DNA from: a virus
Length of the DNA: 56,314 bases
IMG/VR virus record: IMGVR_UViG_3300032282_004923
Coordinates: 1 to 56,314 of that record
Reading direction: 5' to 3' (one strand)
Under the pieces are notes generated by a model, which was given only the letters and a program-made list of their open reading frames with translations, did not search any database and was not told the origin of the DNA. The stretch's first letter is position 1, and every line of letters begins with the position of its first letter. This document shows, piece by piece, positions 25,320 through 39,810 of this stretch. A program made the position numbers and the translations under genes.

Positions 25320-25376
25320 TTAAGCGCTAACCATGATGAAAATAAATATTCCAATGAATCCAATTAGATTACCCAT
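25320..25376 (-). CDS. Hydrophobic micropeptide (18 aa)
   Basis: MGNLIGFIGIFIFIMVSA. Its ATG shares one base with the stop of the 25376-25585 gene (TGATG), so it is placed for translational coupling. It is one single membrane helix. Seven other peptides of this kind occur between 32.5 and 39.8 kb. Confidence 0.6.
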   Translation of the reverse strand: MGNLIGFIGIFIFIMVSA

Positions 25377-25585
25377 CAGCTCGAGGCCTTTAGCTCGTTA
25401 ATCATTTTTAAACCCTTGTAAGCTACTTCGTCCCAGGACTGGCCCATGTATTCTTCGGCGATATCGACGTCACTGACTGGACCGTCCGCAACTTGAACGT
25501 GCAGTGAAATAAGAATAAGCAGCAGAGCTTCTTCAGCTGAGTCCGCCAGGCTAATGGCCGGCGTCTTGATTTTTTTCTTAGTCAT
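25376..25585 (-). CDS. Small acidic hypothetical protein
   Basis: A 69-residue protein, MTKKKIKTPAISLADSAEEA then two helices and an acidic segment (DVDIAEEYMGQSWDEVAYKG). It overlaps the end of the potassium-channel gene by 8 bases and its own stop overlaps a hydrophobic micropeptide. No family recognised; it could be a soluble partner of the channel (inference). Confidence 0.72.
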   Translation of the reverse strand: MTKKKIKTPAISLADSAEEALLLILISLHVQVADGPVSDVDIAEEYMGQSWDEVAYKGLKMINELKASS

Positions 25586-25919
25586 TATGTACCTTCTGAT
25601 GTATAGAGCGAAGAAGTTCTTTTACTTCTTCTTGTTCTTCGTGAGTGAACTTATGTTCGTCGATGATTATCGAGCGCGCTACCAGGGCCGTAATTGTTGG
25701 AACAACTATGAACACTGCGGTAAAAACCAAAAGCATCCCAGCTCCGCGGCCGACGAGAGACCTTGGATATTGGTCTCCGTAGCCGACTGTAGTAAATGTC
25801 ATGAATGCCCACCAAACTGCATCACCAGTTGAGTGGTGCTCCGCTGCCACGTACGCAATTACTGCAGTTACGTAGACGCTAGCCAGGAGCGAGCTTAAAC
25901 GTAGTAGTTGTTTCTTCAT
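25578..25919 (-). CDS. Two-TM potassium channel (Kcv/KcsA-like pore)
   Basis: A 113-residue protein with the minimal potassium-channel architecture. TM1 is about residues 5-27 and the pore helix 34-43. The selectivity filter TTVGYGD is at about 43-49, and TM2 at about 58-80 (AGMLLVFTAVFIVVPTITAL). A charged C-terminal helix (FTHEEQEEVKELLRSIHQKV) could tetramerise. The filter is intact, so conduction is plausible. Chlorella viruses use similarly small Kcv channels to depolarise host membranes during entry; in a phage it could act in lysis, superinfection exclusion or ion balance. It starts without SD from a leaderless-type promoter. Confidence 0.88.
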   Translation of the reverse strand: MKKQLLRLSSLLASVYVTAVIAYVAAEHHSTGDAVWWAFMTFTTVGYGDQYPRSLVGRGAGMLLVFTAVFIVVPTITALVARSIIIDEHKFTHEEQEEVKELLRSIHQKVHND

Positions 25920-25925
25920 GGGCTA

Positions 25926-25954
25926 ATACTTCCATAGTCTTCCGCCACCGTCAA
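25926..25954 (-). promoter_or_regulatory. Promoter in dispersed box (copy 3): TTGACG-N17-AAGTAT
   Basis: The box CTTCCGCCACCGTC at 25939 reads leftward as TTGACGGTGGCGGAAG. AAGTAT follows after 17 bases and the channel ATG 6 bases later. The -10 is weak but the geometry matches copies 1 and 2. Confidence 0.5.
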
Positions 25955-25973
25955 CCGCTAATAACAAAAATAT

Positions 25974-26219
25974 TTAGCGCGCTAGGTTTTTATTATGTGA
26001 AGACACTGACGGATGAGCTGAGCCCACGTTCTCGAGCGTGTCTGAGTTATAAATAGTTTCGCAGCGATTGCATATGTAGTGCACGCCGTCCCATTCCTTA
26101 GGCGTCGGGGGTACATGCATCCCACGTGATGTACAGGTTTCAAACCCGTCACTGCGCGGGTTGTTACCGCACCCACATACAAACCAGTCACTGGATGTTT
26201 CTTTTAAATTCAAGTTCAT
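25974..26219 (-). CDS. Small zinc-binding protein
   Basis: The start at 26219 (MNLNLKETSSDWFVCGCGNN) gives 81 residues after AAAGGCG. CGCGNN, then GFETCTSRGMHVPPTP, then HYICNRCETIYN give two Cys pairs plus His, a likely zinc ribbon. It is the last gene of a leftward run of tiny genes. Confidence 0.72.
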   Translation of the reverse strand: MNLNLKETSSDWFVCGCGNNPRSDGFETCTSRGMHVPPTPKEWDGVHYICNRCETIYNSDTLENVGSAHPSVSSHNKNLAR

Positions 26220-26230
26220 GCGGACGCCTT

Positions 26231-26374
26231 TCATTCTGAACTCACAAAACCGCACCAGAACCCATGGGCCGTTAGGAGGTCTGCGATTTTATCCAGGCAT
26301 TCACCATCAGTGTGGTCTTCGCCTGGAAGGTTTATGATGCTGGCGATTTCCTTAAGCAGGTCTTCGTTATTCAC
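26231..26374 (-). CDS. Small acidic protein, tandem paralogue (47 aa)
   Basis: GTG start at 26374 after AGGAGATACAG, overlapping the upstream stop by 8 bases. The product (NNEDLLKEIASIINLPGEDH then TDGECLDKIADLL) is paralogous to the 26367-26531 product: both share ..L..EI..I, TDGECL and DLL..xG. Tandem duplication is likely. Function unknown. Confidence 0.68.
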   Translation of the reverse strand: MNNEDLLKEIASIINLPGEDHTDGECLDKIADLLTAHGFWCGFVSSE

Positions 26375-26531
26375 CTGTATCTCCTGTTCGGTTGATTGTT
26401 GGGTAGACGGGTCCGTAGCCGTTTTGTTCTAGCAGGTCGCAGACCATTTCTAGACACTCGCCATCGGTCGCAAGCTCCCCATCGATGCGCATGATGCGAA
26501 TTATTTCTGCCATTAGCTCTTCTGAGGTCAT
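26367..26531 (-). CDS. Small acidic protein, tandem paralogue (54 aa)
   Basis: The start MTSEELMAEIIRIMR at 26531 overlaps the upstream stop (ATGA) and follows GGAAGAGAA. It has the same core as the next gene (ATDGECLEMVCDLLEQNGYG). All helical and acidic. Function unknown. Confidence 0.7.
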   Translation of the reverse strand: MTSEELMAEIIRIMRIDGELATDGECLEMVCDLLEQNGYGPVYPTINRTGDTGE

Positions 26532-26686
26532 GTTGGGTTCTCTTCCGTTGTGAATATACAATGCCAGCACGTCATACTAAAGATGTGTTCATCGTCAAGC
26601 ACGACGGCTGATAGTACACCACCCTTTATCAACGTGTCACATTTTATGCAGGTATTCGTGTGATGTGTGAGTTCTTCTTGTTTCAT
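26528..26686 (-). CDS. Small zinc-ribbon protein (52 aa)
   Basis: MKQEELTHHTNTCIKCDTLI then TCWHCIF: two CxxC pairs 22 residues apart form a compact ribbon. Its stop overlaps the next start (ATGA). It follows the 26688 gene after a 1-base gap. Very short, but the coding pattern and coupling support it. Confidence 0.68.
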   Translation of the reverse strand: MKQEELTHHTNTCIKCDTLIKGGVLSAVVLDDEHIFSMTCWHCIFTTEENPT

Positions 26687-26687
26687 G

Positions 26688-26885
26688 TTAGAGGTCTATA
26701 CTTGTCGTGATGAACGGGAGGACCTTGTCGTCGATAAATATTCGTTCTTCATCAGTGACGTCGCGAAAGATTCCGTCGTCATCCATGGCTTCAGATATTG
26801 ATGAGCTGAAGTTCATGTCTACAAATATTTTGCCGTTATCGTCGACAGTGACGATTACTATAGGGCACAGGACAATCTGTTTCAT
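26688..26885 (-). CDS. Small hypothetical protein
   Basis: A 65-residue protein, MKQIVLCPIVIVTVDDNGKI..., with alternating beta-like hydrophobic strands and a strongly acidic centre (EAMDDDGIFRDVTDEER). Its start shares one base with the stop of the upstream zinc-ribbon gene (TAATG). No family recognised. Confidence 0.72.
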   Translation of the reverse strand: MKQIVLCPIVIVTVDDNGKIFVDMNFSSSISEAMDDDGIFRDVTDEERIFIDDKVLPFITTSIDL

Positions 26886-27055
26886 TATTTTACCTTCTTC
26901 TTTTTAGACAGGCAGTTGATGCATGTGTAGATAATGATTGCTGGGGTTACATCGTCTTTGATGTCCAGCGAGCCGTAGTAAGGCTCCCATAGCTTTTTAC
27001 ACCTATGACAGTGTGTGTAGGTAGGAGCTTCGAAGTCGTCTTCGTCGTGGTCCAT
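26885..27055 (-). CDS. Small zinc-ribbon protein (56 aa)
   Basis: The ATG at 27055 follows AGGGGGAAATC. MDHDEDDFEAPTYTHCHRCK then IYTCINCLSKKKK: two CxxC pairs, an acidic N-terminus and a Lys-rich tail. It is the first gene of the leftward unit driven by the CRP-site promoter at 27095-27139. Confidence 0.72.
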   Translation of the reverse strand: MDHDEDDFEAPTYTHCHRCKKLWEPYYGSLDIKDDVTPAIIIYTCINCLSKKKKVK

Positions 27056-27094
27056 GATTTCCCCCTGGTAAGTAGTTAGTTAGGTATGGGGTGC

Positions 27095-27139
27095 ACGCTA
27101 CACCCAACACCTCAGTTTTCCAATATGACGTTTGTCACA
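27095..27139 (-). promoter_or_regulatory. CRP-like site plus promoter TTGGAA-N17-TAGCGT
   Basis: Minus strand: TGTGACAAACGTCATA (27139-27124) directly abuts TTGGAA (27123-27118), then a 17-base spacer and TAGCGT (27100-27095). The site is TGTGA-N6-TCAtA. It overlaps the 3' end of the CIRCE-controlled gene and drives the 27055 unit. Confidence 0.65.
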
Positions 27140-27356
27140 TCTTGACGAGCACACGATGTTGCTCGACCCATTGCTCTCCACTGCCATTGAGTGGCTTGAC
27201 TAGTAAGTCGAGGTGACCGAAACGAACACGGACGTCGGAGATTTTTACACCGACAGTGAGTCCTTCGATTGACACTGTTCCTACTTCGCCTTTGAAGCGT
27301 TGTGGGTTTAATTCCTCAATTGAGGCTTTGCTATACGTACGTACAGGTTGTTGCAT
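27135..27356 (-). CDS. Small protein under CIRCE control
   Basis: A 73-residue protein starting after AAGGAG. The sequence (VGTVSIEGLTVGVKISDVRV, RFGHLDLLVKPLNG, WVEQHRVLVK) looks like an all-beta barrel of OB or SH3 type. It is not recognisably GroES, HSP20 or DnaJ. The only regulatory element in front is a perfect CIRCE operator over the transcription start, so expression should rise when HrcA is released (heat or unfolded-protein stress). A role in host chaperone function is possible but not shown. Confidence 0.75.
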   Translation of the reverse strand: MQQPVRTYSKASIEELNPQRFKGEVGTVSIEGLTVGVKISDVRVRFGHLDLLVKPLNGSGEQWVEQHRVLVKM

Positions 27357-27368
27357 GTCTGCTCCTTC

Positions 27369-27395
27369 TTAGCACTCTGATGTGCTGAGTGCTAA
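27369..27395. promoter_or_regulatory. Perfect CIRCE operator (HrcA site)
   Basis: TTAGCACTC-N9-GAGTGCTAA, identical to the canonical CIRCE consensus including the 9-base spacer. It lies between the -10 (TAGCGT, 27400-27395) and the SD of the 27135-27356 gene, covering the expected transcription start. In bacteria this element is bound by HrcA and controls groE/dnaK genes. Confidence 0.92.
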
Positions 27396-27424
27396 CGCTA
27401 CCGACTACACCCTGCAAACCACAA
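27395..27424 (-). promoter_or_regulatory. Promoter TTGTGG-N18-TAGCGT for the CIRCE gene
   Basis: Minus strand: TTGTGG (27424-27419), 18-base spacer, TAGCGT (27400-27395). The last base of the -10 is the first base of CIRCE, so HrcA would block the start site. Confidence 0.6.
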
Positions 27425-27454
27425 CCTCTCACGTAGGAAAATCTCGAGGGCCCT

Positions 27455-27540
27455 CTTCCACCACCGTCCGGTAGTCGAGTAGCCCCGCGGGGGAAGAACC
27501 GGTTCCGGGGCCCCAGAGTTCCGCCGCAGCCGGCTGCCGG
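27455..27540 (+). repeat. Dispersed intergenic module, copy 4
   Basis: CTTCCACCACCGTC at 27455-27468, then GTAGTCGAGTAGCCCCGCGGGG, an AACCGGTT palindrome and a GC-rich stretch up to the rightward gene at 27559. The TTG of the leftward -35 is lost here (CGGACG), so this copy is probably not a leftward promoter. Confidence 0.75.
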
Positions 27541-27558
27541 AGAAGTAGTGTCAAGGGT

Positions 27559-27948
27559 ATGACAAGTACATCAAAATGGGACAGAAACATAGACGCTTTG
27601 CGGGATTTTGTAGGGAAACACGGTAGTGCCTTGGTTCCAACAGCTCATAAACACGAGTTTGACGGGAAGATTGTTTCTCTCGGAGCTTGGGTGAGCTACT
27701 TGCGTATCAAGTATCGCGGCGGTCTGGTTAGCCCCGATAAGATTTCCCAGTTGGAGTCTTTCCCTGGTTGGTCTTGGGGGCCTTGCAAGCCTGGCCCTCT
27801 CGGTAATCCCGACAGAGACAAGAAGATGATAGAGATGCGCACTAACGGTAGTAGCCTGCAAGCCATCGGTGACGAGTACGGTCTGTCTCGTCAGCGTGTT
27901 CATCAGATACTTGGCAGACTTGGATACAAGGAAAAAACAAATGCGTAA
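27559..27948 (+). CDS. Helicase-associated domain fused to sigma-region-4-like HTH
   Basis: A 129-residue protein in two parts. Residues about 5-75 (WDRNIDALRDFVGKHGSALV, LGAWVSYLRIKYRGG, ISQLESFPGWSW) match the helicase-associated (HA) domain, a myb-like DNA-binding helix bundle. Residues about 90-125 (MRTNGSSLQAIGDEYGLSRQ then RVHQILGRLGY) are a sigma-70 region 4-like helix-turn-helix. Together it is a likely transcription factor or sigma-like regulator for the accessory region. It overlaps the next gene by 8 bases. Confidence 0.8.
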   Translation: MTSTSKWDRNIDALRDFVGKHGSALVPTAHKHEFDGKIVSLGAWVSYLRIKYRGGLVSPDKISQLESFPGWSWGPCKPGPLGNPDRDKKMIEMRTNGSSLQAIGDEYGLSRQRVHQILGRLGYKEKTNA

Positions 27949-28183
27949 CGAGGACTTTCATCGCCCTTACACAAAGTCGGGTGTGTCAGAAGGCAGAGCC
28001 GTAGTGTTAGGAATAATCATTAGTGGGCTTGTCTATGGGCTTACACTTTGGACAACGCTATGGTTTGTCCGTTCGTCAGGTATCGCTTCGTGGCAAATGC
28101 CATTCTGGAAATGCGTTCTTCTGACCGACTTGATAAACGCGCTGCGACTTTACGACCAGCAGGTATTCAGTAAAAAACAGTAG
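27941..28183 (+). CDS. Small membrane protein
   Basis: The start at 27941 (MRNEDFHRPYTKSG) gives 80 residues. One membrane helix (VVLGIIISGLVYGLTLWTTL) is followed by a second amphipathic segment (FWKCVLLTDLINALRLYD). Its start lies within the end of the HTH gene, suggesting coupling. Function unknown. Confidence 0.7.
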   Translation: MRNEDFHRPYTKSGVSEGRAVVLGIIISGLVYGLTLWTTLWFVRSSGIASWQMPFWKCVLLTDLINALRLYDQQVFSKKQ

Positions 28184-28186
28184 GGT

Positions 28187-28210
28187 CTTCCACCACCGTC
28201 AGGTGGTAGT
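28187..28210 (+). repeat. Dispersed intergenic box, copy 5
   Basis: CTTCCACCACCGTC at 28187-28200 followed by AGGTGGTAGTGATGAG; CACC and GGTG can pair. It begins 4 bases after a rightward stop and ends close to the stop of a leftward gene, so here the box sits between converging genes, where it cannot drive a nearby gene. Confidence 0.75.
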
Positions 28211-28217
28211 GATGAGT

Positions 28218-28439
28218 TTATTCTGACTGTCGGAAAACCATCAGCCCTGCGACTGATGAACCTTCGTGCGTTGGGTCTGCGAGTGCAATACCTGTTACCC
28301 ACGCTTCTTTTGGTAGTGGCTGTGTCGGGTCATCGCCTACTATGCCACGCACCTTCTGTATCGCTTCGCTAATCGCTTCGCCGTCTGAGTGTGCTTCCAC
28401 ATCTACGCCGACCATAACTTGTACTCGGTACTTGCTCAT
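28218..28439 (-). CDS. Small hypothetical protein
   Basis: The start at 28439 (MSKYRVQVMVGVDVEAHSDG) gives 73 residues: a beta-alpha-beta start with conserved-looking EAISEAIQKVRGIVGD, which resembles small phage proteins with a ferredoxin-like fold. It follows the VWA gene in a leftward operon. Confidence 0.72.
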   Translation of the reverse strand: MSKYRVQVMVGVDVEAHSDGEAISEAIQKVRGIVGDDPTQPLPKEAWVTGIALADPTHEGSSVAGLMVFRQSE

Positions 28440-28580
28440 CGCTGTCTTTCTGCCCGTACCTAAGTGTCGGGTCTTTCTTTTGCTCGCCTCTACGGGCTTC
28501 CTGTGAGCCACTTTCTTTGAGATAGTCAGGCAGGTGGGGAGAAAGGGGGTGAAGCCCCACCTGCCGACAACTAGCCACAC

Positions 28581-30089
28581 TCAACGATAAGTGAGTGTGT
28601 GACCTGTGCGCTCTTGATAAGTGTTGGCAAGGTGGCTCGGAACGATGCTACGCACCTTCTCGCCCTTGCTCATCGCTTTGAGCATTGCTATCGCTTGTTC
28701 AGGTGTCTCTGCCGTGTAGATACCAAACTGTTTTACGAGTCCGATACATTCCATAACTAAGTCCACTCCCCAACTATCGCCTACGCCCGTGACACCACCA
28801 TCTGTTACCCAGATTAGAGGCGAGTTGGAACGCTGACGCTTAGAGATAGCCCAACGGATAGCAGGCGCATCTACGCCATTGCCACCGTTAGGGTCAGGAA
28901 GGTGACTTACGCACTTTCCCTTGTTAGCGACAACATAAAGGTTGGGCTTATTGCTACGCCCACCTGAATACTGAGCCACGAGAGCCGATGGTGCGTTGAG
29001 TACCATCTCCATTACTTCATCGTGTGACAGGCTCATAGAACCACTTGTGTCAATGAGTACAACTCCACCAGCACCTTTCACAGTACGGTCAAAGATACGC
29101 TTGTCGGGGTCTGTGAGTAGGCGAGACATACGGCGTGGATTACGCCCCATATTGGTAGCGATACGCTTACGCCCTAACGCACCCATTACATTACGGTCTA
29201 GCATCGGTGTGGAAACTTTTAGTTTTTCCCATAGTGCGTCACGAGACTTTTTAGGAATACTGCCACGAGCGTTCCAACCCTTGTTCGCATCTATCCAACC
29301 TTGTCCAGCCTTTTCTAAGGCTTCTTTGGGGTCAGTTGCTTCTGTGCCTTCGCCAGCAGGCTGACCTTGTGGCTGACCACTCGGATTATCCGTGAGTGCG
29401 CCTACTACTTCCTCTACCCACTTGGCGTAGTTTTCTACATAGCCAAATCCCGATAGGTGTATGCGTGAGTGCGTACCACCGAGAGTTTGTACGCCGTGAC
29501 TTTTTATGATGTTGTTGTAATACTCAACACCTTTGTCTGTGATGTAAGTAAGGTACTCCACCCACTCAGGGTGGTGCTTAGATATTCCAGCAAGGTAGTC
29601 GCCGTATCCAGCAGTATTGCGATAGGCAATACAGGTAGCAACGGCGTTCAGAAAGTCACCGTGCTGTGCTGTGCGTTCACCATCTAGGCGTTCACTCCCG
29701 TCACGCAAGTGTGTCTGTGGGTCAAATCCTGAGTGTTCTAAGAGCATATTTACTCGTAGTTCTTCACACACAGTCATTGTCACTTGTTTTGCGTATCCAC
29801 GAGCAATCCACTTGTCAAACTGTTTCGCATTGGGTGAAACTTTTGCGTGAACCATCTCGTGACCACGAATAGTGCGAGAGTGTTCATCGTCATACAACGG
29901 TACAAACATTTCACGGTCTGTCACATTGGTCTTTGGCTCACCACGCTTCGCTTCTACGCCCGTGATGTTCCAACGCTTGTCTTTGCCTGTGTTGTCGTTA
30001 CGACCTAGCATCTCAGGCTCAGGGCTTTGGGGCGTGAACCCCTTAGCCGTTATCTGAGTGCTTATCGGGTCATCTGTTATGCGTGACAT
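28581..30089 (-). CDS. VWA-domain protein with HExxH metallopeptidase-like motif
   Basis: A 502-residue protein. HEMVHAK at about 77-83 contains HExxH, with a Glu-rich helix (CEELRVNMLLE) about 30 residues later as possible third ligand. The VWA metal-binding (MIDAS) motif DTSGSMS is at about 347-353. A Pro/Gly/Gln linker separates the two. This is the architecture of VWA-like putative metallopeptidases that pair with MoxR-type AAA ATPases. The ATPase gene lies directly upstream in the same operon. Start follows GGGGGAGAG. The pair probably remodels a protein complex; the substrate is unknown. Confidence 0.88.
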   Translation of the reverse strand: MSRITDDPISTQITAKGFTPQSPEPEMLGRNDNTGKDKRWNITGVEAKRGEPKTNVTDREMFVPLYDDEHSRTIRGHEMVHAKVSPNAKQFDKWIARGYAKQVTMTVCEELRVNMLLEHSGFDPQTHLRDGSERLDGERTAQHGDFLNAVATCIAYRNTAGYGDYLAGISKHHPEWVEYLTYITDKGVEYYNNIIKSHGVQTLGGTHSRIHLSGFGYVENYAKWVEEVVGALTDNPSGQPQGQPAGEGTEATDPKEALEKAGQGWIDANKGWNARGSIPKKSRDALWEKLKVSTPMLDRNVMGALGRKRIATNMGRNPRRMSRLLTDPDKRIFDRTVKGAGGVVLIDTSGSMSLSHDEVMEMVLNAPSALVAQYSGGRSNKPNLYVVANKGKCVSHLPDPNGGNGVDAPAIRWAISKRQRSNSPLIWVTDGGVTGVGDSWGVDLVMECIGLVKQFGIYTAETPEQAIAMLKAMSKGEKVRSIVPSHLANTYQERTGHTLTYR

Positions 30090-30097
30090 CTCTCCCC

Positions 30098-32538: not shown

Positions 32539-32598
32539 CTAATCAAACGCCCACAATAAGAACAGTAGGAAGATGATGATGATGAAGCCAAATGTCAT
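32539..32598 (-). CDS. Hydrophobic micropeptide (19 aa)
   Basis: MTFGFIIIIFLLFLLWAFD. Its ATG overlaps the stop of the 32595-32840 gene (ATGA). It is one membrane helix with an acidic end and the last gene of the leftward operon before the terminator. Confidence 0.62.
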   Translation of the reverse strand: MTFGFIIIIFLLFLLWAFD

Positions 32599-32840
32599 TT
32601 TGGTAACCCTGTGTAAGCAACAATCTCCCACAGTTTCTTTGCGTGTATCTGCTTTGCGAGGTCAAGAAGTACAGACATCATTCGTTCGTCTGTAAGACCG
32701 TGCTGTAAGAAAGACCCATCTACCGTTTCGTAGAGAATGGTCATAAGAGCATCACCCCCAGTCGCATCTAGCGTGTAGTAGTTCTCGTCAAAGAGTTCTA
32801 CCAGTTCTTCGTTTGTTAGGTCTGATAGTTCTGTTGTCAT
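32595..32840 (-). CDS. Small acidic hypothetical protein
   Basis: The start at 32840 (MTTELSDLTNEELVELFDEN) overlaps the upstream stop by 4 bases and gives 81 residues. All helical, acidic (ETVDGSFLQHGLTDERMM). No family recognised. The middle part of a fully coupled leftward operon. Confidence 0.75.
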   Translation of the reverse strand: MTTELSDLTNEELVELFDENYYTLDATGGDALMTILYETVDGSFLQHGLTDERMMSVLLDLAKQIHAKKLWEIVAYTGLPK

Positions 32841-33058
32841 TCCAATACTGTCCAATCATCTTCGCTGCGAATAAGTCCAAGAGTAGAGCCACTATCCCAC
32901 TTTATGTGGAATGTGCCTAAGTCGTCTATGTCGGTAATGACACCTTCATCCCCTTTGGAGAGTTTGGTGAACGGGTCGGATGAATAGTTGAGGCGCACTC
33001 GCTTTCCAACAAGTGCGCCACGCAACCAATCTTTTGTGAGTTCAGTAATCTTGTTCAT
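32837..33058 (-). CDS. DUF4314-like small protein
   Basis: The start at 33058 (MNKITELTKDWLRGALVGKR) shares a base with the upstream stop (TAATG). The 73-residue body GKRVRLNYSSDPFTKLSKGDEG, VITDIDDLGTFHIKWDSGST then LGLI has the G.RV.L....DP...L..G..G.V...D..G...I.WD.GS.LGL pattern of DUF4314 (an SH3-like domain). Function unknown. Confidence 0.82.
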   Translation of the reverse strand: MNKITELTKDWLRGALVGKRVRLNYSSDPFTKLSKGDEGVITDIDDLGTFHIKWDSGSTLGLIRSEDDWTVLE

Positions 33059-33642
33059 TAGCAAATCTGAAATCCACCACAGTTCGCGAGAAATGTTACG
33101 AACTGACGGATGTTGTCTTTGTCAATGTGGTAGTCCTTGGCGAAAGGCTTTTGCCCACCGGAACCGTTACAGGCATTACATTCTTTGACTTGCTCAATCC
33201 AGCCTTCTGCTAATTCTAAATCTTTGTAAGCAGGAAGCCTGTCCTCGTGTGTGAGTGTATCCATAAGACTGAACTCGTAAGCAGGAACTTGGGTTACCTC
33301 GCCAGCAGTTGCTTTGGGGTTTATGTGCCAAGTGCGCTGACCAGTTGCCTTACAATGAGGGCAGGGGCGAATAGGCAACGCCTCTATTTCTGCGTCACGG
33401 TCTGCTATGTACTTGTCTGCTGTTCCGTCACGCAAAGATTTACGCAGAGCCTTTGCTAGAAGCACAGAGTCGTCTCCGTCAAGCCCGTCACCATCGTTGC
33501 TGTATGCGAACTCCACCAACTCGGTGAGGTCGGGTGCGACAAACTCGCAGTATTCCCACAAGGGTCGCCACCACCATACATTGTTACGGAAGTACGCACC
33601 TTTTTCATTCTTTGGTTCTACACCAAATACATCCATTCCCAT
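33058..33642 (-). CDS. Conserved protein with DnaJ-type zinc-finger repeats
   Basis: A 194-residue protein starting MGMDVFGVEPKNEKGAYFRN, then NVWWWRPLWEYC, a block I associate with a conserved phage/bacterial family. Two CxxCxxxG motifs (CPHCKATG and CNACNGSG), as in DnaJ zinc fingers, flank the middle region and suggest one shared zinc site or protein-binding module. First gene of the operon; start after AAAGGGGTATCCA. A possible co-chaperone-like role is inference. Confidence 0.82.
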   Translation of the reverse strand: MGMDVFGVEPKNEKGAYFRNNVWWWRPLWEYCEFVAPDLTELVEFAYSNDGDGLDGDDSVLLAKALRKSLRDGTADKYIADRDAEIEALPIRPCPHCKATGQRTWHINPKATAGEVTQVPAYEFSLMDTLTHEDRLPAYKDLELAEGWIEQVKECNACNGSGGQKPFAKDYHIDKDNIRQFVTFLANCGGFQIC

Positions 33643-34644: not shown

Positions 34645-34712
34645 CATCCACCACCGTCAAAGTAGTAGCGCATTGCTATCGCATCGCAGCCCCGGTAAGA
34701 TATCCAGATGAG
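34645..34712 (+). repeat. Dispersed intergenic module, copy 9
   Basis: CATCCACCACCGTC at 34645, AAAGTAGTAG, CAGCCCCGG and CCAGATG. In this copy the ATG of CCAGATG is the start codon of the 34708 gene, so the module forms that gene's leader. Confidence 0.75.
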
Positions 34713-34917
34713 TAGTTATGCGATGTTCCGTTGTGTGTTTTGTGACAATCCACTAAATGTTGGAGACTCAACTGTTATGAAACAGGTTGTTTGTTGGGTG
34801 CGTTCTGATAACAACACATCTCCCAAGGGGGCGCAAAGCCAACATCGCTATGCTCACGCAGTTTGTTTAGAGGTGGAACTCCACAGCAAGCCTAAACAGG
34901 CAGAAACTTTGTTCTAA
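34708..34917 (+). CDS. Small zinc-binding protein
   Basis: A 69-residue protein: FRCVFCDNPLNVGDST ... HRYAHAVCLEVE gives C-x2-C and H-x2-H/C ligands of a zinc ribbon. The start at 34708 lies in the CCAGATG part of the dispersed module; a second ATG is at 34720. The stop overlaps the converging micropeptide stop. Confidence 0.72.
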   Translation: MSSYAMFRCVFCDNPLNVGDSTVMKQVVCWVRSDNNTSPKGAQSQHRYAHAVCLEVELHSKPKQAETLF

Positions 34918-34967
34918 CTAATAGCGACTACGGCAAAAGCGATAATCAAGATAACAATAAAAGTCAT
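34914..34967 (-). CDS. Hydrophobic micropeptide (17 aa)
   Basis: MTFIVILIIAFAVVAIS. ATG overlaps the stop of the 34964-35392 gene (ATGA). One membrane helix with the family ending VVAIS. It is the last gene of a five-gene leftward operon. Confidence 0.65.
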   Translation of the reverse strand: MTFIVILIIAFAVVAIS

Positions 34968-35392
34968 TGGTGCGCCTTGCGCCAGCCACCATTGCCATCT
35001 CCGAGATACACGATGCTTTCTGTTCCCTCGGTAAGCCAAGTCCAACACCAGCGACAGCAAGAAGGAACTTCTGTCCCTGTACCCATGTTATTCGGGTGGC
35101 AACCACGGTCACCCATCTTTTCTGCCAGCAACGGGAATGTCGTAAGGAACTTTACAACGCAATCGTGACACAGCCACCAATGCTCATACTCGTCTCCCCC
35201 GATAAGAACGCCGATGTCGTCATCAAAGCCGTTGTAGTAACCGAAGTGTTTATGTGGCAAGAACCAACCCGATGGGGCTGGCTCTGCTAACTGTTCTCCC
35301 GAACGGAGCGTGATGAGATGTTTGTTGTAGGTTTCCCCACACGCTGAACAATCAACCGTTGTAGGAATAGGTGTTGTATCCGTAAGGGTCAT
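34964..35392 (-). CDS. Cys-rich zinc-binding protein
   Basis: The ATG at 35392 gives 142 residues and overlaps the upstream gene by 41 bases. Cysteine pairs CSACGETY, CHDCVVKF and CCRWCW, with Trp-rich spacers (YEHWWLCHDC), point to two zinc sites. No family recognised. The start lacks a clear SD and could be re-initiation. Confidence 0.68.
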   Translation of the reverse strand: MTLTDTTPIPTTVDCSACGETYNKHLITLRSGEQLAEPAPSGWFLPHKHFGYYNGFDDDIGVLIGGDEYEHWWLCHDCVVKFLTTFPLLAEKMGDRGCHPNNMGTGTEVPSCCRWCWTWLTEGTESIVYLGDGNGGWRKAHQ

Positions 35393-35561
35393 AGACCGTT
35401 GTACTCGTTTCGCAAGGGTAGTGATAATACTCGCAGTCGGGGAGACCTTGCTTTTCGTCCCCGATAGAGCCAATAAGAATGAGTGTCGCACCGATGAGGC
35501 TTACCCAAAAGACAAAGCGTACGCAAGAGCGAACTGTGTAATAGACGGGTGGGTGGTTCAT
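35352..35561 (-). CDS. Single-TM protein with C-terminal Cys motif (paralogue 1)
   Basis: A 69-residue protein, MNHPPVYYTVRSCVRFVFWV. One membrane helix (FVFWVSLIGATLILIGSI) is followed by LPDCEYYHYPCETSTTVYDP and a Tyr/Asn-rich end. Paralogous to the 39572 gene on the other strand: shared VRSCVR..FW, PDCE..H.PCE..TT.YDPYG. The ATG overlaps the preceding micropeptide stop. Two conserved Cys outside the membrane suggest a disulfide. Confidence 0.75.
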   Translation of the reverse strand: MNHPPVYYTVRSCVRFVFWVSLIGATLILIGSIGDEKQGLPDCEYYHYPCETSTTVYDPYGYNTYSYNG

Positions 35562-35644
35562 CTGTCATCTCCTGCGAGAATGATTGCCATAAGAAAGACA
35601 AGCCCGAGAGGCAGACTCATAATGACTGCGAGTAGAACTTTCAT
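35558..35644 (-). CDS. Hydrophobic small peptide (28 aa)
   Basis: Begins MKVLLAVIMSLPLGLVFLMA and ends ILAGDDR; one membrane helix with a charged tail. It is coupled on both sides by ATGA overlaps (35641 gene stop, 35561 gene start). Longer than the other micropeptides but in the same kind of position. Confidence 0.62.
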   Translation of the reverse strand: MKVLLAVIMSLPLGLVFLMAIILAGDDR

Positions 35645-35937: not shown

Positions 35938-35943
35938 AACTAC

Positions 35944-35988
35944 AAGGTACAGGGTGTAAGGCGTAATGTCAATATGACATTTGTCACA
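35944..35988 (-). promoter_or_regulatory. CRP-like site plus leaderless promoter TTGACA-N17-TACCTT
   Basis: Minus strand: TGTGACAAATGTCATA (35988-35973) abuts TTGACA (35972-35967); spacer 17; TACCTT (35949-35944); ATG at 35937, 6 bases on. Confidence 0.72.
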
Positions 35989-36047
35989 GGGTGGAGAAGC
36001 AAGAGAGGGAGTGAGTAAATAGAAAGGGGGCGACAAGAGAGAGAGTT

Positions 36048-36118
36048 CTTCCACCACCGTCGTTCTAGTCGGAGTCCCGCGTTGCGCAGCGGCTTGCCGG
36101 GGCTGCCATCTTCCTGCT
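36048..36118 (+). repeat. Dispersed intergenic module, copy 10
   Basis: CTTCCACCACCGTC at 36048, GTTCTAGTCGG, AGTCCCG paired with CGGGGCT about 18 bases on. It lies in the 370-base gap 35938-36307, which also holds a micropeptide and two promoters. Confidence 0.8.
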
Positions 36119-36139
36119 GCGGCAGCGGCGCATGGAAAC

Positions 36140-36168
36140 TTGACTTGGCTTGCAGTTCGTGTTACTTT
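36140..36168 (+). promoter_or_regulatory. Leaderless promoter TTGACT-N17-TACTTT
   Basis: TTGACT (36140-36145), spacer 17, TACTTT (36163-36168), then 6 bases to the ATG at 36175. No CRP-like site in front. Confidence 0.6.
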
Positions 36169-36174
36169 GACGCT

Positions 36175-36228
36175 ATGAAGTTTGTAGTCATACTTGTAAT
36201 AGCCTTTATCGTTGTGGGCATGGGGTGA
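36175..36228 (+). CDS. Hydrophobic micropeptide (17 aa), free-standing
   Basis: MKFVVILVIAFIVVGMG. The only member of the family with its own promoter rather than coupling to an upstream gene. Its strong similarity to MTFIVILIIAFAVVAIS on the other strand argues that it is a real gene. Confidence 0.62.
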   Translation: MKFVVILVIAFIVVGMG

Positions 36229-36278
36229 CAAAAGACACACTTTTAGTATTTGACTAATGGCTACTAACTTGGTAGCCT
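36224..36278 (+). promoter_or_regulatory. CRP-like site plus promoter TTGACT-N17-TAGCCT (10-base gap)
   Basis: GGTGACAAAAGACACA (36224-36239; first base deviates), 10-base gap, TTGACT (36250-36255), spacer 17, TAGCCT (36273-36278). Drives the 36308 gene. Confidence 0.65.
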
Positions 36279-36307
36279 GACATTCTCAACTCACAAAAGG
36301 GGGAATC

Positions 36308-36664
36308 ATGACCGATTCTGTCATTGAGTGGGAGGGGATAAGCAATACCTCTGAGGATTGGCAGTGGGATATGGCGACAGACTTGTTCGCCATGACCGCC
36401 GAAGTGCTCATTGCTCATAATGAGGAACTCAACGAAGGCGACACTTGGTGGCGTGTTCAGGGTTTCCCGTTGTGGGGCGGTGGGCGTGACGGCATATTCC
36501 GCGCTGACAGTCCAATGGAGTTGTTGGAAAAGATTACCGTTCGTTCGGATTGGTCATTGCGCTACACGCTTGACTCCGAAACAATGGTACTCACTTGTCA
36601 CCTCTCTCACCACGATGCAAGCGGGCAGTTCACGGTGCAGGCAACGCCTAATCCTGACCGCTAA
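36308..36664 (+). CDS. Hypothetical protein, 118 aa
   Basis: Starts after AAAGGGGGAATC. An acidic, Trp-rich protein (MTDSVIEWEGISNTSEDWQW, GDTWWRVQGFPLWGGG). A helical N-terminus is followed by strands (ITVRSDWSLRYTLDSETMVL). No family recognised. Single-gene cassette. Confidence 0.78.
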   Translation: MTDSVIEWEGISNTSEDWQWDMATDLFAMTAEVLIAHNEELNEGDTWWRVQGFPLWGGGRDGIFRADSPMELLEKITVRSDWSLRYTLDSETMVLTCHLSHHDASGQFTVQATPNPDR

Positions 36665-36681
36665 TCCAACCAACCACAAGC

Positions 36682-36713
36682 AAGCCCGTCTCCGTAAGGG
36701 GGCGGGCTTTTTG
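36682..36713 (+). terminator. Intrinsic terminator
   Basis: AAGCCCG pairs with CGGGCTT, followed by a T run, 17 bases after the 36308 gene. Confidence 0.78.
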
Positions 36714-36740
36714 CGTTGTCTCCACTCTTGCGCTTGCTGT

Positions 36741-36791
36741 CATCCGCCACCGTCGTAGTAGTAACTGGGACATCGGCAGCCCCGCTACCCG
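36741..36791 (+). repeat. Dispersed intergenic module, copy 11
   Basis: CATCCGCCACCGTC, GTAGTAGTAA, then a perfect 12-bp stem CTGGGACATCGG/CCGATGTCCCAG with CAGCCCCGC in the loop. No protein gene in the surrounding 36665-37136 stretch. Confidence 0.88.
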
Positions 36792-36916
36792 ATGTCCCAG
36801 GTGTGCCACGTCGCCTGGTTTGAACGTGAGCGTTTCGTGTTTGAAAAAATAAAAACTGAGAAAACTGCAAAAAAGAAACAAAAAGTTGGAGAAAAGTAAA
36901 ACTTTTAGCGAAAAAC

Positions 36917-36945
36917 TTGAAAAAACAAAAGTTTGTTGCTATGTT
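36917..36945 (+). promoter_or_regulatory. A-tract promoter TTGAAA-N17-TATGTT
   Basis: TTGAAA (36917-36922), 17-base spacer, TATGTT (36940-36945). About 80 bases of A-rich sequence precede it, like an UP element. It has no CRP-like site. Confidence 0.55.
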
Positions 36946-36951
36946 GCATCC

Positions 36952-37065
36952 CCGTTTTCACGTAGCAACCGGCTTCGTGCGCGCGAGTCCCGATACGGCG
37001 AGCTCGCTCGCGGGGCTTCGGCACGGCTCGTCGCCCTTCGTCGCCGCCGCTGCCAGTCCTTCGTT
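36952..37065 (+). ncRNA. Candidate structured RNA downstream of A-tract promoter
   Basis: A GC-rich, non-coding stretch in an otherwise A-rich setting. AGTCCCG pairs with CGGGGCT (one wobble) around 37000. The equivalent position holds similar arms at about 38640 and 39372. It could be a small RNA or just a long leader of the 37137 gene. Confidence 0.35.
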
Positions 37066-37070
37066 GCGCC

Positions 37071-37115
37071 TGTGACAACTGCCACATTGACATTGTCGCC
37101 TGCACCCTGTACCAT
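37071..37115 (+). promoter_or_regulatory. CRP-like site plus promoter TTGACA-N17-TACCAT (no gap)
   Basis: TGTGACAACTGCCACA (37071-37086) abuts TTGACA (37087-37092); spacer 17; TACCAT (37110-37115). Drives the 37137 gene. Confidence 0.72.
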
Positions 37116-37136
37116 ACAAGTATGAGAGGGGGTGAA

Positions 37137-37499
37137 ATGAAACTAACAAATACCGAACTGTCGCTAATCGCATTACGCAACGCTGACCGTTCAGGTCGTG
37201 AGTGCGACCCGCACGAAGTTATCGCTCAAATGGGCAAGATGAACTTTTTCGCGGTGTGCGGTGGTAAGTGGGCAAAGATAAACGCTAGTGATGGCGTGAC
37301 TATCGGCTTACTGATGCCGTGCGGAGAAAGTCGTGCGGTTGAGGTGATACTCAACTTCTTAGACCTTTACGAAGTGCGCCGTGTGCGCCGTGTGAATCGT
37401 GGCGATGCAAAAGGCTCGCTAGTCGTTGAGTACGAAGTGCTTGATGTCTATTGCGAGAATCTAGGCGATGCTGTCTATTCCGCTTCCTGCTGGAAGTAA
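37137..37499 (+). CDS. Hypothetical protein, 120 aa
   Basis: ATG at 37137 follows GAGGGGGTGAA; the ATG at 37122 would lack an SD. MKLTNTELSLIALRNADRSG..., with strands around VEVILNFLDLYEVRRVRRVN and a C-terminal Cys/Tyr part (VLDVYCENLGDAVYSASCW). No family recognised. Confidence 0.75.
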   Translation: MKLTNTELSLIALRNADRSGRECDPHEVIAQMGKMNFFAVCGGKWAKINASDGVTIGLLMPCGESRAVEVILNFLDLYEVRRVRRVNRGDAKGSLVVEYEVLDVYCENLGDAVYSASCWK

Positions 37500-37527
37500 T
37501 CCAACCCAACAACCCAACTAACCGAGT

Positions 37528-37560
37528 GCGCCCGTTCCCGAAAGGGGGCGGGCGTTTCTT
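37528..37560 (+). terminator. Intrinsic terminator
   Basis: GCGCCCG pairs with CGGGCGT, followed by TTCTT, 28 bases after the 37137 gene. Confidence 0.75.
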
Positions 37561-37572
37561 GTTGTGTGCCAT

Positions 37573-37640
37573 CTTCCGCCACCGTCGTAGTAGTAACAGC
37601 GCTGAGCCTTGCAGCCCCGCTGGTTTTTGTTTCCCAGTCA
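37573..37640 (+). repeat. Dispersed intergenic module, copy 12
   Basis: CTTCCGCCACCGTC, GTAGTAGTAACAGCG, GCAGCCCCGC and CCCAGTC. The hairpin is weaker than in copies 11, 13 and 14. Confidence 0.8.
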
Positions 37641-37672
37641 GGTTGCGAAGAAGGGCGTGTGGGGCTTTGAGA

Positions 37673-37717
37673 TGTGACAAAAGAGTGCTTGCTTTTCTTT
37701 GCTGGTGCTTGTACCCT
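37673..37717 (+). promoter_or_regulatory. CRP half-site plus promoter TTGCTT-N17-TACCCT (no gap)
   Basis: TGTGACAAAAGAGTGC (37673-37688; right half degenerate) abuts TTGCTT (37689-37694); spacer 17; TACCCT (37712-37717). Confidence 0.6.
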
Positions 37718-37752
37718 ACACCTGTTACCTAACTATCCCTAAGGGGGGTCAA

Positions 37753-38166
37753 ATGCCAACAGTAGATTATGACGGAATACAGATGATGTATGAGTCAGAC
37801 ATAAACAAGTCAGAGAGTGGTCTTATGGAGTCACTTATTGACGCTGTCAAAGATGGCGAGTTATCGCCTTTCGTCTTCACGATGGAGTGGTCTATCTGTG
37901 ACTACTGCCGTGGTGGTGGTGGACACTCTCGCCGTTTCGGTGCGATGACATCAGATGAGTTCGCAGAGTGGAGCGATGAGTCTCGTGAGGCGTATATGCG
38001 TGGTGCTTACGATGAGCGTTGCGATGCGTGTAACGGTCAAGGCAAAGTTTACGAGATGAACGAGAAAGACCTGCCCGAGGAAGTCCAAGAGTACATCGGG
38101 CGATATCGCTCAGACGCTTACGAGTCTGCTTCCACCTCAGCAATGGAACGCCGTTTCGGTTGCTAG
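37753..38166 (+). CDS. Protein with DnaJ-type zinc-finger motifs
   Basis: The start at 37753 after AAGGGGGGTCAA gives 137 residues. CDYCRGGGGHSR and CDACNGQGKVYE are CxxCxGxG repeats of the DnaJ type, about 45 residues apart, with a Ser/Ala/Arg-rich C-terminus. A second, unrelated-looking protein with such motifs lies at 33058. It could bind unfolded protein or act as a chaperone modulator. The stop is shared with the start of a micropeptide (TAGTG). Confidence 0.8.
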   Translation: MPTVDYDGIQMMYESDINKSESGLMESLIDAVKDGELSPFVFTMEWSICDYCRGGGGHSRRFGAMTSDEFAEWSDESREAYMRGAYDERCDACNGQGKVYEMNEKDLPEEVQEYIGRYRSDAYESASTSAMERRFGC

Positions 38167-38222
38167 TGGTTACCGTTGCGCTCATCATTAGTATCGCCGT
38201 CTTAGCCGTAGCCATTTCCTAG
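38166..38222 (+). CDS. Hydrophobic micropeptide (18 aa)
   Basis: GTG start sharing its first base with the upstream TAG. MVTVALIISIAVLAVAIS, one membrane helix; family ending AVAIS. Confidence 0.62.
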   Translation: MVTVALIISIAVLAVAIS

Positions 38223-38238
38223 TCACCCGACCAAGAGA

Positions 38239-38277
38239 GGTCGCCTGCCCTTAGAACGGGGGTGGGCGACCTTTTTT
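38239..38277 (+). terminator. Intrinsic terminator
   Basis: GGTCGCCTGCCC pairs with GGTGGGCGACC (one bulge), then six Ts. It ends the 37753/micropeptide transcript. Confidence 0.82.
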
Positions 38278-38397
38278 GCGTACCCGTAGAGGCATCTGTA
38301 AGGCTCGCAGAGGCGAGATAACCATTGCTTGCTCATATCCGTACCCCAACAACTACCGAGGGCTTTTGAGTCGCAGAGTAATCCAGTTGGGGTTTGT

Positions 38398-38475
38398 CTT
38401 CCACCACCGTCGTAGTAGTGAGAGGTGGGTCTGGCAGTCCCGACTGCCAGACCCAGATGTCCCAGTCTTCTGGGG
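38398..38475 (+). repeat. Dispersed intergenic module, copy 13
   Basis: CTTCCACCACCGTC, GTAGTAGTGAG, a perfect 12-bp stem GGGTCTGGCAGT/ACTGCCAGACCC with CCCG loop, then CAGATG and a small TCCCAG/CTGGGG hairpin. Non-coding stretch 38223-38814 contains this module, an A-tract promoter and a GC-rich region. Confidence 0.88.
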
Positions 38476-38582
38476 GAAAGACGATGCGTGGGATTCGGAC
38501 ATTAAGTTTTTATAAAAACCAACTCAAAAAAACAAAAGTTTGACGAAAAAAGAAAAAAAACTTAAAAACTTTGAGGAAAAAC

Positions 38583-38611
38583 TTGAAAAAGAACGAACGC
38601 TTCGCTAGGGT
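38583..38611 (+). promoter_or_regulatory. A-tract promoter TTGAAA-N17-TAGGGT
   Basis: TTGAAA (38583-38588), spacer 17, TAGGGT (38606-38611), preceded by about 80 A-rich bases. Confidence 0.5.
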
Positions 38612-38614
38612 TTG

Positions 38615-38742
38615 CCCGTTTCGCCCGTGCGAGCGCGCGAGTCCCGTTGGAGCGGGTTTCCCCGCGGGACTACCCAGAGGCCCCCGGCCGCAGCTCGAGC
38701 TTAGGTTTGGCGGCCGCAGCTCGAGCTCGGATTATCAAACCA
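38615..38742 (+). ncRNA. Candidate structured RNA with AGTCCCG/CGGGACT hairpin and repeat
   Basis: AGTCCCG pairs with CGGGACT across 18 bases (about 38639-38670). A 16-base direct repeat (GGCCGCAGCTCGAGCT) follows at about 38687 and 38712, and GGTTTG/CAAACC can close a further stem. No protein gene is seen. Same position and arms as the candidate RNAs near 36952 and 39340. Confidence 0.35.
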
Positions 38743-38744
38743 GG

Positions 38745-38789
38745 TGTGTCAAATGTCACTGTGTTGTTGCGCCTTATAGGCTGTACCAT
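38745..38789 (+). promoter_or_regulatory. CRP-like site plus promoter GTGTTG-N17-TACCAT (no gap)
   Basis: TGTGTCAAATGTCACT (38745-38760) abuts GTGTTG (38761-38766); spacer 17; TACCAT (38784-38789). Weak -35 but intact site and -10. Confidence 0.6.
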
Positions 38790-38814
38790 CTACCTCTTCT
38801 AAAGAAAGGTATCT

Positions 38815-39018
38815 ATGCCGGAGTTTTATCCGGAAGAAACCAAACACCAAAAGTCAAAAAGGTTTAGTAACTCATCAGGAAAGATGGTCAAAGCATTTAG
38901 CCACACAAAGTGTGGTCGGTGCGACACCATAATTGTTGAGGGAACAGAATGTGTTTGGCTTCGCAGTAAAGGTTGCTTCCATAAACAGGGCGAGTGCCCA
39001 CCCAAAGAAGACCGATGA
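38815..39018 (+). CDS. Small basic zinc-ribbon protein
   Basis: Starts after AAAGGTATCT. 67 residues: a basic N-terminus (EETKHQKSKRFSNSSGK), then FSHTKCGRCDTIIVEGTECV and GCFHKQGECPP, a Cys/His zinc ribbon. The stop overlaps the start of a micropeptide (ATGA). Function unknown, possibly nucleic-acid binding. Confidence 0.75.
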   Translation: MPEFYPEETKHQKSKRFSNSSGKMVKAFSHTKCGRCDTIIVEGTECVWLRSKGCFHKQGECPPKEDR

Positions 39019-39068
39019 CTATTTTAATTATCGTTCTCATTGCAGTAATAGTTGTAGCGATGTCCTAG
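39015..39068 (+). CDS. Hydrophobic micropeptide (17 aa)
   Basis: MTILIIVLIAVIVVAMS, coupled to the 38815 gene by an ATGA overlap; one membrane helix with the family ending VVAMS. Confidence 0.65.
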   Translation: MTILIIVLIAVIVVAMS

Positions 39069-39097
39069 CCCCCCAAGGACATTGCTCTTACAGAAAG

Positions 39098-39128
39098 ACC
39101 CCGTGCTAAAAAGTGCGGGGTTTTTCTT
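39098..39128 (+). terminator. Intrinsic terminator
   Basis: ACCCCG pairs with CGGGGT, loop rich in A, then a T run, 30 bases after the micropeptide. Confidence 0.78.
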
Positions 39129-39131
39129 TGT

Positions 39132-39192
39132 CTTCCGCCACCGTCGTAGTAGTAACTGCTCCCTTCGGAAGCCCCGCTTTCCGAAGGGAGTG
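39132..39192 (+). repeat. Dispersed intergenic module, copy 14
   Basis: CTTCCGCCACCGTC, GTAGTAGTAA, then stem CTCCCTTCGGA/TCCGAAGGGAG with AGCCCCGC in the loop. It begins directly after a terminator. The stretch 39069-39571 has no protein gene. Confidence 0.88.
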
Positions 39193-39306
39193 TCGCTCAG
39201 CGCACGTTCGCCGTCGCTAAAAGGAACTTCGCAAAAAAAATAAAACTCAAAAACTTTGTTTTCTCGTCAAAAAAGTCAGAAAAAGAGAAAAAGTTGCGAA
39301 ACAAAC

Positions 39307-39334
39307 TTGACAAATGAAAAAAACTTGTTATGTT
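39307..39334 (+). promoter_or_regulatory. A-tract promoter TTGACA-N16-TATGTT
   Basis: TTGACA (39307-39312), spacer 16, TATGTT (39329-39334), after about 90 A-rich bases. Shares CTTG..TATGTTG with the 36917 promoter. Confidence 0.55.
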
Positions 39335-39339
39335 GCTGG

Positions 39340-39420
39340 CTTGCGGGGGGGTGTGTCACAGTTTTGCCATCTTCCGCGCGGGAGCCCCGTTACTACTCTC
39401 GAGTAGTAACGGGACTATGA
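39340..39420 (+). ncRNA. Candidate structured RNA with 12-bp CCCGTTACTACT hairpin
   Basis: A truncated dispersed box (CTTCCGC) leads into AGCCCCGTTACTACTC paired with GAGTAGTAACGGG. The arms combine the module's GTAGTAGTAAC and CCCG elements in one stem, suggesting this RNA and the modules share structure. No protein gene is seen. Confidence 0.4.
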
Positions 39421-39510
39421 AGCCCTCAGCCAGAAACTTGCTGGGGCGAGGAACTGCGTTCTTTCTTTTCTTGCGTGTTGGCGGCTGCGTGAAAGTAAAA
39501 AAAGAAATGC

Positions 39511-39539
39511 TTGACTTTTGTTTGTGTGGGGTGTACCTT
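39511..39539 (+). promoter_or_regulatory. Promoter TTGACT-N17-TACCTT
   Basis: TTGACT (39511-39516), spacer 17, TACCTT (39534-39539). An AAGAAATGC stretch lies before -35, as in the 10-base gaps elsewhere, but no good CRP-like site precedes it. Confidence 0.65.
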
Positions 39540-39571
39540 GTAAGCAGGTGGAGACCTACCCGAAAGGAACT

Positions 39572-39754
39572 ATGTACTACTTTGTGCGCTCTTGCGTGCG
39601 GTGGTTGTTTTGGACGGTCATAATCTCAGCATTTTGGCTCGCCATCATCACCTACACAAACAATTACACAGAAAAAATACCTGACTGTGAGTTAGGGCAT
39701 TTTCCGTGTGAAGCACCAACAACAATTTATGACCCATACGGAATGGGGGGGTAA
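39572..39754 (+). CDS. Single-TM protein with C-terminal Cys motif (paralogue 2)
   Basis: ATG at 39572 after GAAAGGAACT. 60 residues: MYYFVRSCVRWLFWTVIISA, membrane helix, then IPDCELGHFPCEAPTTIYDP and YGMGG. Paralogue of 35352-35561. Its stop overlaps the start of a micropeptide (TAATG), so both copies are linked to hydrophobic micropeptides. Confidence 0.78.
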   Translation: MYYFVRSCVRWLFWTVIISAFWLAIITYTNNYTEKIPDCELGHFPCEAPTTIYDPYGMGG

Positions 39755-39810
39755 TGGAAATAGTAATAATCATTTTATCGGTAGCGTTTTTAGCAGTCTC
39801 AATCAGTTAG
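39754..39810 (+). CDS. Hydrophobic micropeptide (18 aa)
   Basis: MEIVIIILSVAFLAVSIS, coupled to the preceding gene by TAATG. One membrane helix; family ending AVSIS. Confidence 0.65.
   Translation: MEIVIIILSVAFLAVSIS

Follow-up and report, generated by a model that had tools for sequence, protein, structure and literature searches.

Multicopy hydrophobic micropeptides dispersed in WhiB-encoding phages and their possible action on one common membrane partner

Why would a phage place very short hydrophobic open reading frames (ORFs), similar to one another as proteins, behind unrelated genes on both DNA strands? The question is raised by the IMG/VR virus record IMGVR_UViG_3300032282_004923, analyzed over its 56,314 bases (referred to as the window), whose genes include tail, primase, helicase, and ribonucleotide reductase genes and two WhiB genes. 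A first-pass annotation, made from the DNA letters alone, had proposed a family of eight such ORFs, which lie in a region extending from 25.0 to 40.7 kb, referred to below as the micropeptide module. All eight were recovered with the claimed starts, stops, and overlaps, seven of them coupled to the preceding gene by 1 to 4 bases in unrelated operons on both strands. Membership of the 28-residue hydrophobic ORF (MKVLLAVIMSLPLGLVFLMAIILAGDDR; 35558..35644, minus strand, ATGA overlap) was not sustained, since no counterpart was present at that place in relatives, and this ORF was left out of the family count. The family in the window consists of the seven other members, six of which overlap the upstream gene, only the copy at 36175 having its own promoter.

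The members on the minus strand are MGNLIGFIGIFIFIMVSA (25320..25376, with a 1-base TGATG overlap with the preceding gene), MTFGFIIIIFLLFLLWAFD (32539..32598, ATGA overlap), and MTFIVILIIAFAVVAIS (34914..34967, ATGA overlap). Those on the plus strand are MKFVVILVIAFIVVGMG (36175..36228, own promoter, putatively leaderless), MVTVALIISIAVLAVAIS (38166..38222, GTG start, TAGTG overlap), MTILIIVLIAVIVVAMS (39015..39068, ATGA overlap), and MEIVIIILSVAFLAVSIS (39754..39810, TAATG overlap). Terminator-like hairpins follow the copies at 32539, 38166, 39015, and 39754. The similar ending attributed to most members was found in five peptides (-VVAIS, -VVGMG, -VVAMS, -AVAIS, and -AVSIS), whereas the peptides at 25320 and 32539 are more divergent, yet lie at places where relatives also have one.

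Relatives were collected by four viral-contig searches and one further search from a distant clade, the contigs being fragments. The sets were designated A (the window), B (L004-L006 and L008), C (L009 and L011-L013), D (L022 and L116), E (L026-L029 and L118), F (L082, L083, L089, L092, and L102), G (L034 and L153), H (L036), and K (L121-L124). These WhiB-encoding phages carry comparable sets of 3 to 7 peptides of 15 to 20 residues, either coupled to an upstream gene or preceded by their own Shine-Dalgarno sequence, as exemplified by MNSLLFVIALIIVLSA (B), MSALITVLAVIVLFTV (C), MTALVITLAVVLLLAV (D), MTALIVALAVLLLLAI (E), MIEMLTALVVLIIIAAL (F), and MITVLFAILIGIILAA (K). Two clade B ORFs (L005 7395 and L008 7401; MKFHVLVLLVLVAVRL and MKFYVLVLLVFVAVRL) were excluded from the comparisons as doubtful. 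In the larger contigs (137.8 and 75 kb), micropeptides were restricted to about 16 to 17 kb. The peptides of relatives often occur at syntenic places. The 25320 slot is kept between conserved genes in clades D (MATLIFAAAVVALFTCN) and E (MATVIFALAVVALFTCS), the peptide at 32539 has clade B counterparts after the corresponding gene (MAVIFCVGIFLVLFL and MSVIFCVGLFIILFSSDI), and that at 34914 has counterparts 3' of the same gene in clades B, C, D, and E.

Are these ORFs genes? Under a rule combining an ATG or GTG start, a length of 14 to 30 residues, and a Kyte-Doolittle mean of 3.0 or more over 12 residues, the module contained 8 ORFs, compared to a mean of 0.15 and a maximum of 2 in 100 dinucleotide shuffles; the same rule returned 1 and 0 in the rest of the window. 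Coupled ORFs of the micropeptide kind numbered 60 in 362 kb of carrying contigs versus 4 in 1.55 Mb of control sequence (91 stretches), a ratio that is inflated, unlike the control rate, because the carrying contigs were picked for having the peptides. The ratio of nonsynonymous to synonymous changes (pN/pS), pooled over 21 orthologue pairs, was 0.40 (bootstrap 95% interval, 0.31-0.49), and hydrophobicity was kept among orthologues beyond a neutral simulation with an equal number of changes (combined P = 5e-14). Orthologous micropeptides are under purifying selection. Stops and frameshifts in these frames, looked for in related phages, were not encountered.

Initiation signals were also present. 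Predicted pairing with 16S rRNA was stronger before micropeptide starts than before random starts (-7.1 versus -2.6 kcal/mol; P = 4e-11). In the window and its relatives, start placement ranged from 4-base overlaps to spacers of about 10 bases, and many starts had a Shine-Dalgarno sequence proper to the micropeptide; stop-start overlaps of -4 and -1 are usual spacings in translationally coupled genes (PMC12548453). At the 36175 locus, a promoter-like TTGACT-17-TACTTT (36140..36168, plus strand) lies 6 bases upstream of the ATG, and the claim of a separate leaderless promoter gained from the similar arrangement in clades A to E, in which the -35/-10 pair ends 6 to 8 bases 5' of the ATG, a distance that suggests a leaderless mRNA. 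The micropeptide ORFs are, on these features, almost certainly real, selected genes. Several of them stand directly 5' of terminator-like hairpins, as would be expected of re-initiation by-products or of RNA-level or spacer elements lacking any functional product; this explanation is highly improbable, since amino acids are selected while silent sites are free, the 25320 copy is closely followed by another gene, and the 36175 copy begins its own transcript. A further explanation, that the ORFs are membrane tails added to the upstream protein through frameshifting or read-through, would account for starts that mostly overlap the upstream stop. It was rejected, and has very little probability, because of the variable spacing, the frequent private Shine-Dalgarno sequences, and the copy with its own promoter.

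The copies of a genome resembled each other more than they resembled those of other genomes. For five loci in five clades, with clade and locus assignments of our own, the same-genome score was 36.6, compared to 27.3 for the same locus and 25.7 for unrelated pairs, and 36.6 was reached in 0 of 2000 permutations. Scores for 41 peptides from nine genomes were 32.9 within and 22.1 between genomes (0 of 5000 permutations); as some comparisons share ancestry, these permutation counts are not exact probabilities. The nearest neighbor came from the same genome for 23 of the 41 peptides, versus 4 expected. Composition was not the cause of this likeness (10.8, versus 1.0 after residue shuffling), which persisted when the first three residues were removed.

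The claim that protein similarity occurs here without DNA identity, and hence reflects selection, was borne out at the codon level as well as by the pN/pS ratio and the retained hydrophobicity. At shared residues, the same codon was used about as often as expected from codon usage in the window (38 observed, 41.2 expected) and in C (20 and 24.3), D (7 and 13.5), E (17 and 17.0), and F2 (15 and 17.2). Codon identity was raised only in clade B, through one recent duplicate pair, and apart from that duplicate no flanking DNA was shared among copies. Recent gene conversion was rejected as the source of the likeness on the same two grounds. Thus, the likeness of the copies is kept, or made, at the protein level and not through recent copying, because codons at shared residues behave as if independent and flanks are unshared.

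The genes that the micropeptides follow are not constant. A gene of the 36308 type has the peptide 5' of it in clades A to E and 3' of it in G, H, and K. In F and G, a micropeptide comes after the gene ending in TSPRWGRSWR, which has none behind it in D, E, and K; the combination of a 33058-type gene and a micropeptide was found only in K, in which one copy lies directly downstream of a WhiB gene. A gene of the 38815 type is followed by a micropeptide in at least clades A, C, E, F, and H. The slots move between genes, the peptides being attached to different genes in different lineages. The upstream protein is therefore unlikely to be the specific partner of the peptide.

What the peptides might do is suggested by their composition. 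The 46 peptides, of 15 to 20 residues, contain one K/R in total, and their summed insertion energy was negative in 46 of 46 cases on a literature scale. Positions 2-3, 9, and 15 are repeatedly taken by small residues, and those in between by large hydrophobic ones. Such peptides are predicted to form a transmembrane helix.

The main rival explanation starts from the same properties. The micropeptides would depolarize the membrane as Ibs toxins do, by non-specific permeabilization, with host shut-off or inhibition dosed from several operons. Equal size, strong hydrophobicity, and several copies per genome, a trait of Ibs as well, are in its favor. IbsC, which has 19 residues and depolarizes E. 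coli, remains active after truncation to 15 residues, 10 or more of them hydrophobic (PMC8309996). However, IbsC is toxic even when frame-shifted (PMC7192591), leaving the position-specific likeness within genomes unexplained; because of this tolerance, non-specific depolarization alone would not be expected to preserve specific residues. An antisense antitoxin signal was absent from a consensus promoter scan, a method that cannot exclude every promoter (best site, 4.25 mismatches, versus 4.15 for background), and early depolarization would presumably hurt the phage itself. We regard this explanation as unlikely. No Sib or other RNA family apart from tRNA was found in the window. A classical type I toxin-antitoxin arrangement is disfavored by the lack of antisense promoter enrichment and of flanking DNA common to the copies. 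Of the roles put forward in the first-pass annotation, superinfection exclusion and regulation of a host membrane protein are both candidates.

We favor a different proposal. Several operons of the accessory module would deliver one kind of product, a transmembrane helix of 15 to 20 residues with almost no positive charge, translated mostly by re-initiation at the upstream stop codon or from its own Shine-Dalgarno sequence and, in one case, from a leaderless mRNA. After release, the peptides would enter the cytoplasmic membrane of the host and attach to one common partner through helix packing. That partner may be a lineage-specific host membrane protein, which would be inhibited or remodeled, or the peptides may bind one another in a mixed assembly. 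All copies having to fit the same partner, those of one genome would change together and would diverge from those of other phage lineages. Because the copies match within genomes, differ between lineages, and do so independently of the upstream gene, we give an even chance to a multicopy transmembrane micropeptide family acting on one common membrane partner. More tentatively, the sets may represent a new kind of viral family: sub-20-residue transmembrane micropeptides that are translational riders on unrelated genes, and are matched within a genome by protein-level selection (co-evolution without gene conversion) because all of them would bind either each other or a single membrane target specific to the lineage.

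Hetero-assembly would also account for matched copies if the peptides were parts of a lysis system, namely, tiny holin-like or holin-regulating helices, and single hydrophobic helices would suit this function. The copies, however, occupy an accessory module made up of small genes, outside the structural region and across operons on both strands, and no endolysin was identified among the genes scanned. A role in lysis is given a low probability.

Several points weigh against a common partner. In clades D, G, and K, internal likeness exceeds external likeness only slightly, and the assignment of locus iv is uncertain. From sequence features, we infer that the peptides are translated, insert into the membrane, have one partner in common, and modulate the host during infection, and the helix-packing idea takes only residue positions as its basis. 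Moreover, a duplication within each lineage, if old enough for silent sites to be saturated, could produce the within-genome likeness with no ongoing co-selection, although synteny conserved across clades makes it less likely. In its full form, this explanation holds that the peptides expanded independently in each lineage long ago and that only hydrophobicity is selected now. Random-level codon identity would be expected of old duplication too, and clade B offers one recent duplicate pair. Against this, the same slots by the same genes are filled in five clades with different consensus sequences, so that each lineage would have had to refill them, and residue-specific likeness has outlived silent-site saturation. 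Independent old expansions thus appear improbable, though somewhat less so than a lysis function.

The genes on which the micropeptides of the window ride are mostly small. Those on the minus strand encode a 69-residue protein with no family match (25376..25585, preceding the 25320 peptide), an 86-residue protein (32595..32855, 32539 peptide), and a Cys-rich protein whose true start is probably further in (34964..35491, 34914 peptide). On the plus strand, the 38166 peptide follows a gene with a DnaJ-like CxxCxGxG motif and a weak Pfam match below the cut-off (37699..38166), the 39015 peptide follows a gene for a small zinc-ribbon-like protein (CxxC...H...C; 38815..39018), and the 39754 peptide follows a gene for a small membrane protein, YYFVRSCVRW...PDCExxxxPC...DPY (39572..39754). 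Comparison of the partner genes with Pfam and PHROGs gave no match indicating a function and no receptor family. This result bears on the proposal that the peptides are secreted hydrophobic signals of the pheromone or arbitrium kind, several genes supplying a single lineage-specific code, which would suit short, hydrophobic, multicopy peptides with a lineage-specific consensus. No receptor gene is linked to the copies. A signal would be expected to have one exact sequence, but the copies of a genome vary at many positions, and the entire peptide is a membrane segment with no cleavable precursor. Such a signaling role is very unlikely.

Other features of the module were observed. The small membrane protein gene at 39572-39754 (plus strand) has a paralogue at 35355-35561 (minus strand), both of the type YY.VRSCVR...PDCExxxxPC...TTxYDPYG, with relatives in clades B to E. 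Positions 25578-25919 (minus strand) encode a 113-residue pore-only potassium channel with a TVGYGD filter (Pfam Ion_trans_2; E = 3e-13); this motif in a channel context was not seen in the other loci fetched. The family at 33058-33642 (minus strand), which has CxxCxG motifs and an FRNNVWWW motif, is represented in over 560 viral contig stretches as well as in bacterial genomes from several phyla. A 13-base element, WTCCRCCACCGTC, has 14 sites between 24397 and 39145 (e.g., 31635, 37574, 38399, and 39133), versus 0.01 expected; it is confined to the module and lies on the plus strand at all sites despite genes on both strands. A GC-rich hairpin follows most sites, and the core keeps a fixed orientation in many related phages. 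The element is reminiscent of the asymmetric 13-bp stoperators of cluster A mycobacteriophages (PMC6550527) or a recombination site, both as candidates only. Cassettes near it (36191-36794 and 37068-37586) are reordered in relatives, the former matching L005 3608-4205. They are 81 to 87% identical to their relatives, versus about 70% for the helicase; because of this reordering and higher identity, exchange of cassettes between phages is suggested. Elsewhere in the window, genes for a tryptophan halogenase, a 2OG-Fe(II) oxygenase, an HslV-like peptidase, and a PAPS reductase were noted (2509-4005, 4745-5326, 21734-22387, and 43270-44418).

Which hosts are concerned? WhiB was found in 10 of the 10 related records tested, and whiB is used in the literature as an actinophage marker (PMC6802176 and PMC10202952); the window virus and its relatives are therefore most probably phages of actinobacteria. 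No host was assignable by a genome scan, in which relatives of the 33058 gene were found in 13 bacterial genomes of mixed phyla. A nucleotide search of a phage collection with the window gave no near match and a single match, weak and distant, to Actinomycetia phage DSL-LC01, in the homologous region of which no convincing coupled micropeptides were found.

The first-pass remark that such short ORFs are easily missed is supported, since they fall below the usual gene-calling size, and an entire layer of the interaction between aquatic actinobacterial phages and their hosts may consequently go unseen. Many dispersed copies matched by protein and not by DNA are an uncommon evolutionary signature, which would point to one target. 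A natural, lineage-specific series of minimal transmembrane helices could also provide a handle for target finding and for the study of helix recognition in membranes.

How do the sets compare with known systems? In the literature searched, we found no description of multicopy, lineage-consensus sets coupled to exchangeable genes; the catalogue of Fremin et al. 2022 was outside this comparison, so that absence from the literature is not established. That catalogue, cited in PMC11323111, reportedly covers phage small proteins from metagenomes, including short unannotated genes with protein-level selection. Compared by description only, it shares with the micropeptides short phage genes selected as protein. 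Leader peptides of attenuation systems precede the genes that they control, whereas most micropeptide copies are 3' of a gene; the 36175 copy alone lies 5' of one, and a second promoter-like site separates the two. Arbitrium and RRNPPA systems have an adjacent receptor, whereas the partner genes here are small and Cys-rich or without family match. The Ibs peptides of the Ibs/Sib system of E. coli, of about 19 residues, are almost entirely hydrophobic, form a single helix, and exist in several similar copies per genome, and 46 micropeptides have the size and hydrophobicity of this class (a 15- to 19-residue hydrophobic single helix). The micropeptides differ in being phage genes joined to various genes, with concerted differences between lineages, and 6 of the 7 in the window overlap an upstream gene instead of having a separate monocistronic mRNA. 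DinQ, TisB, ShoB, and ZorO are likewise small membrane-inserting peptides that depolarize when overproduced, but they have 26 to 29 residues, often charged ends, one or two copies, and their own promoter and antisense RNA. Peptides of the MgtR, KdpF, CydX, and AcrZ type are single helices of about 29 to 50 residues, present in one copy, that bind and tune a larger membrane protein. The action proposed for the micropeptides would be the same, exerted by helices of 15 to 20 residues present in several copies.

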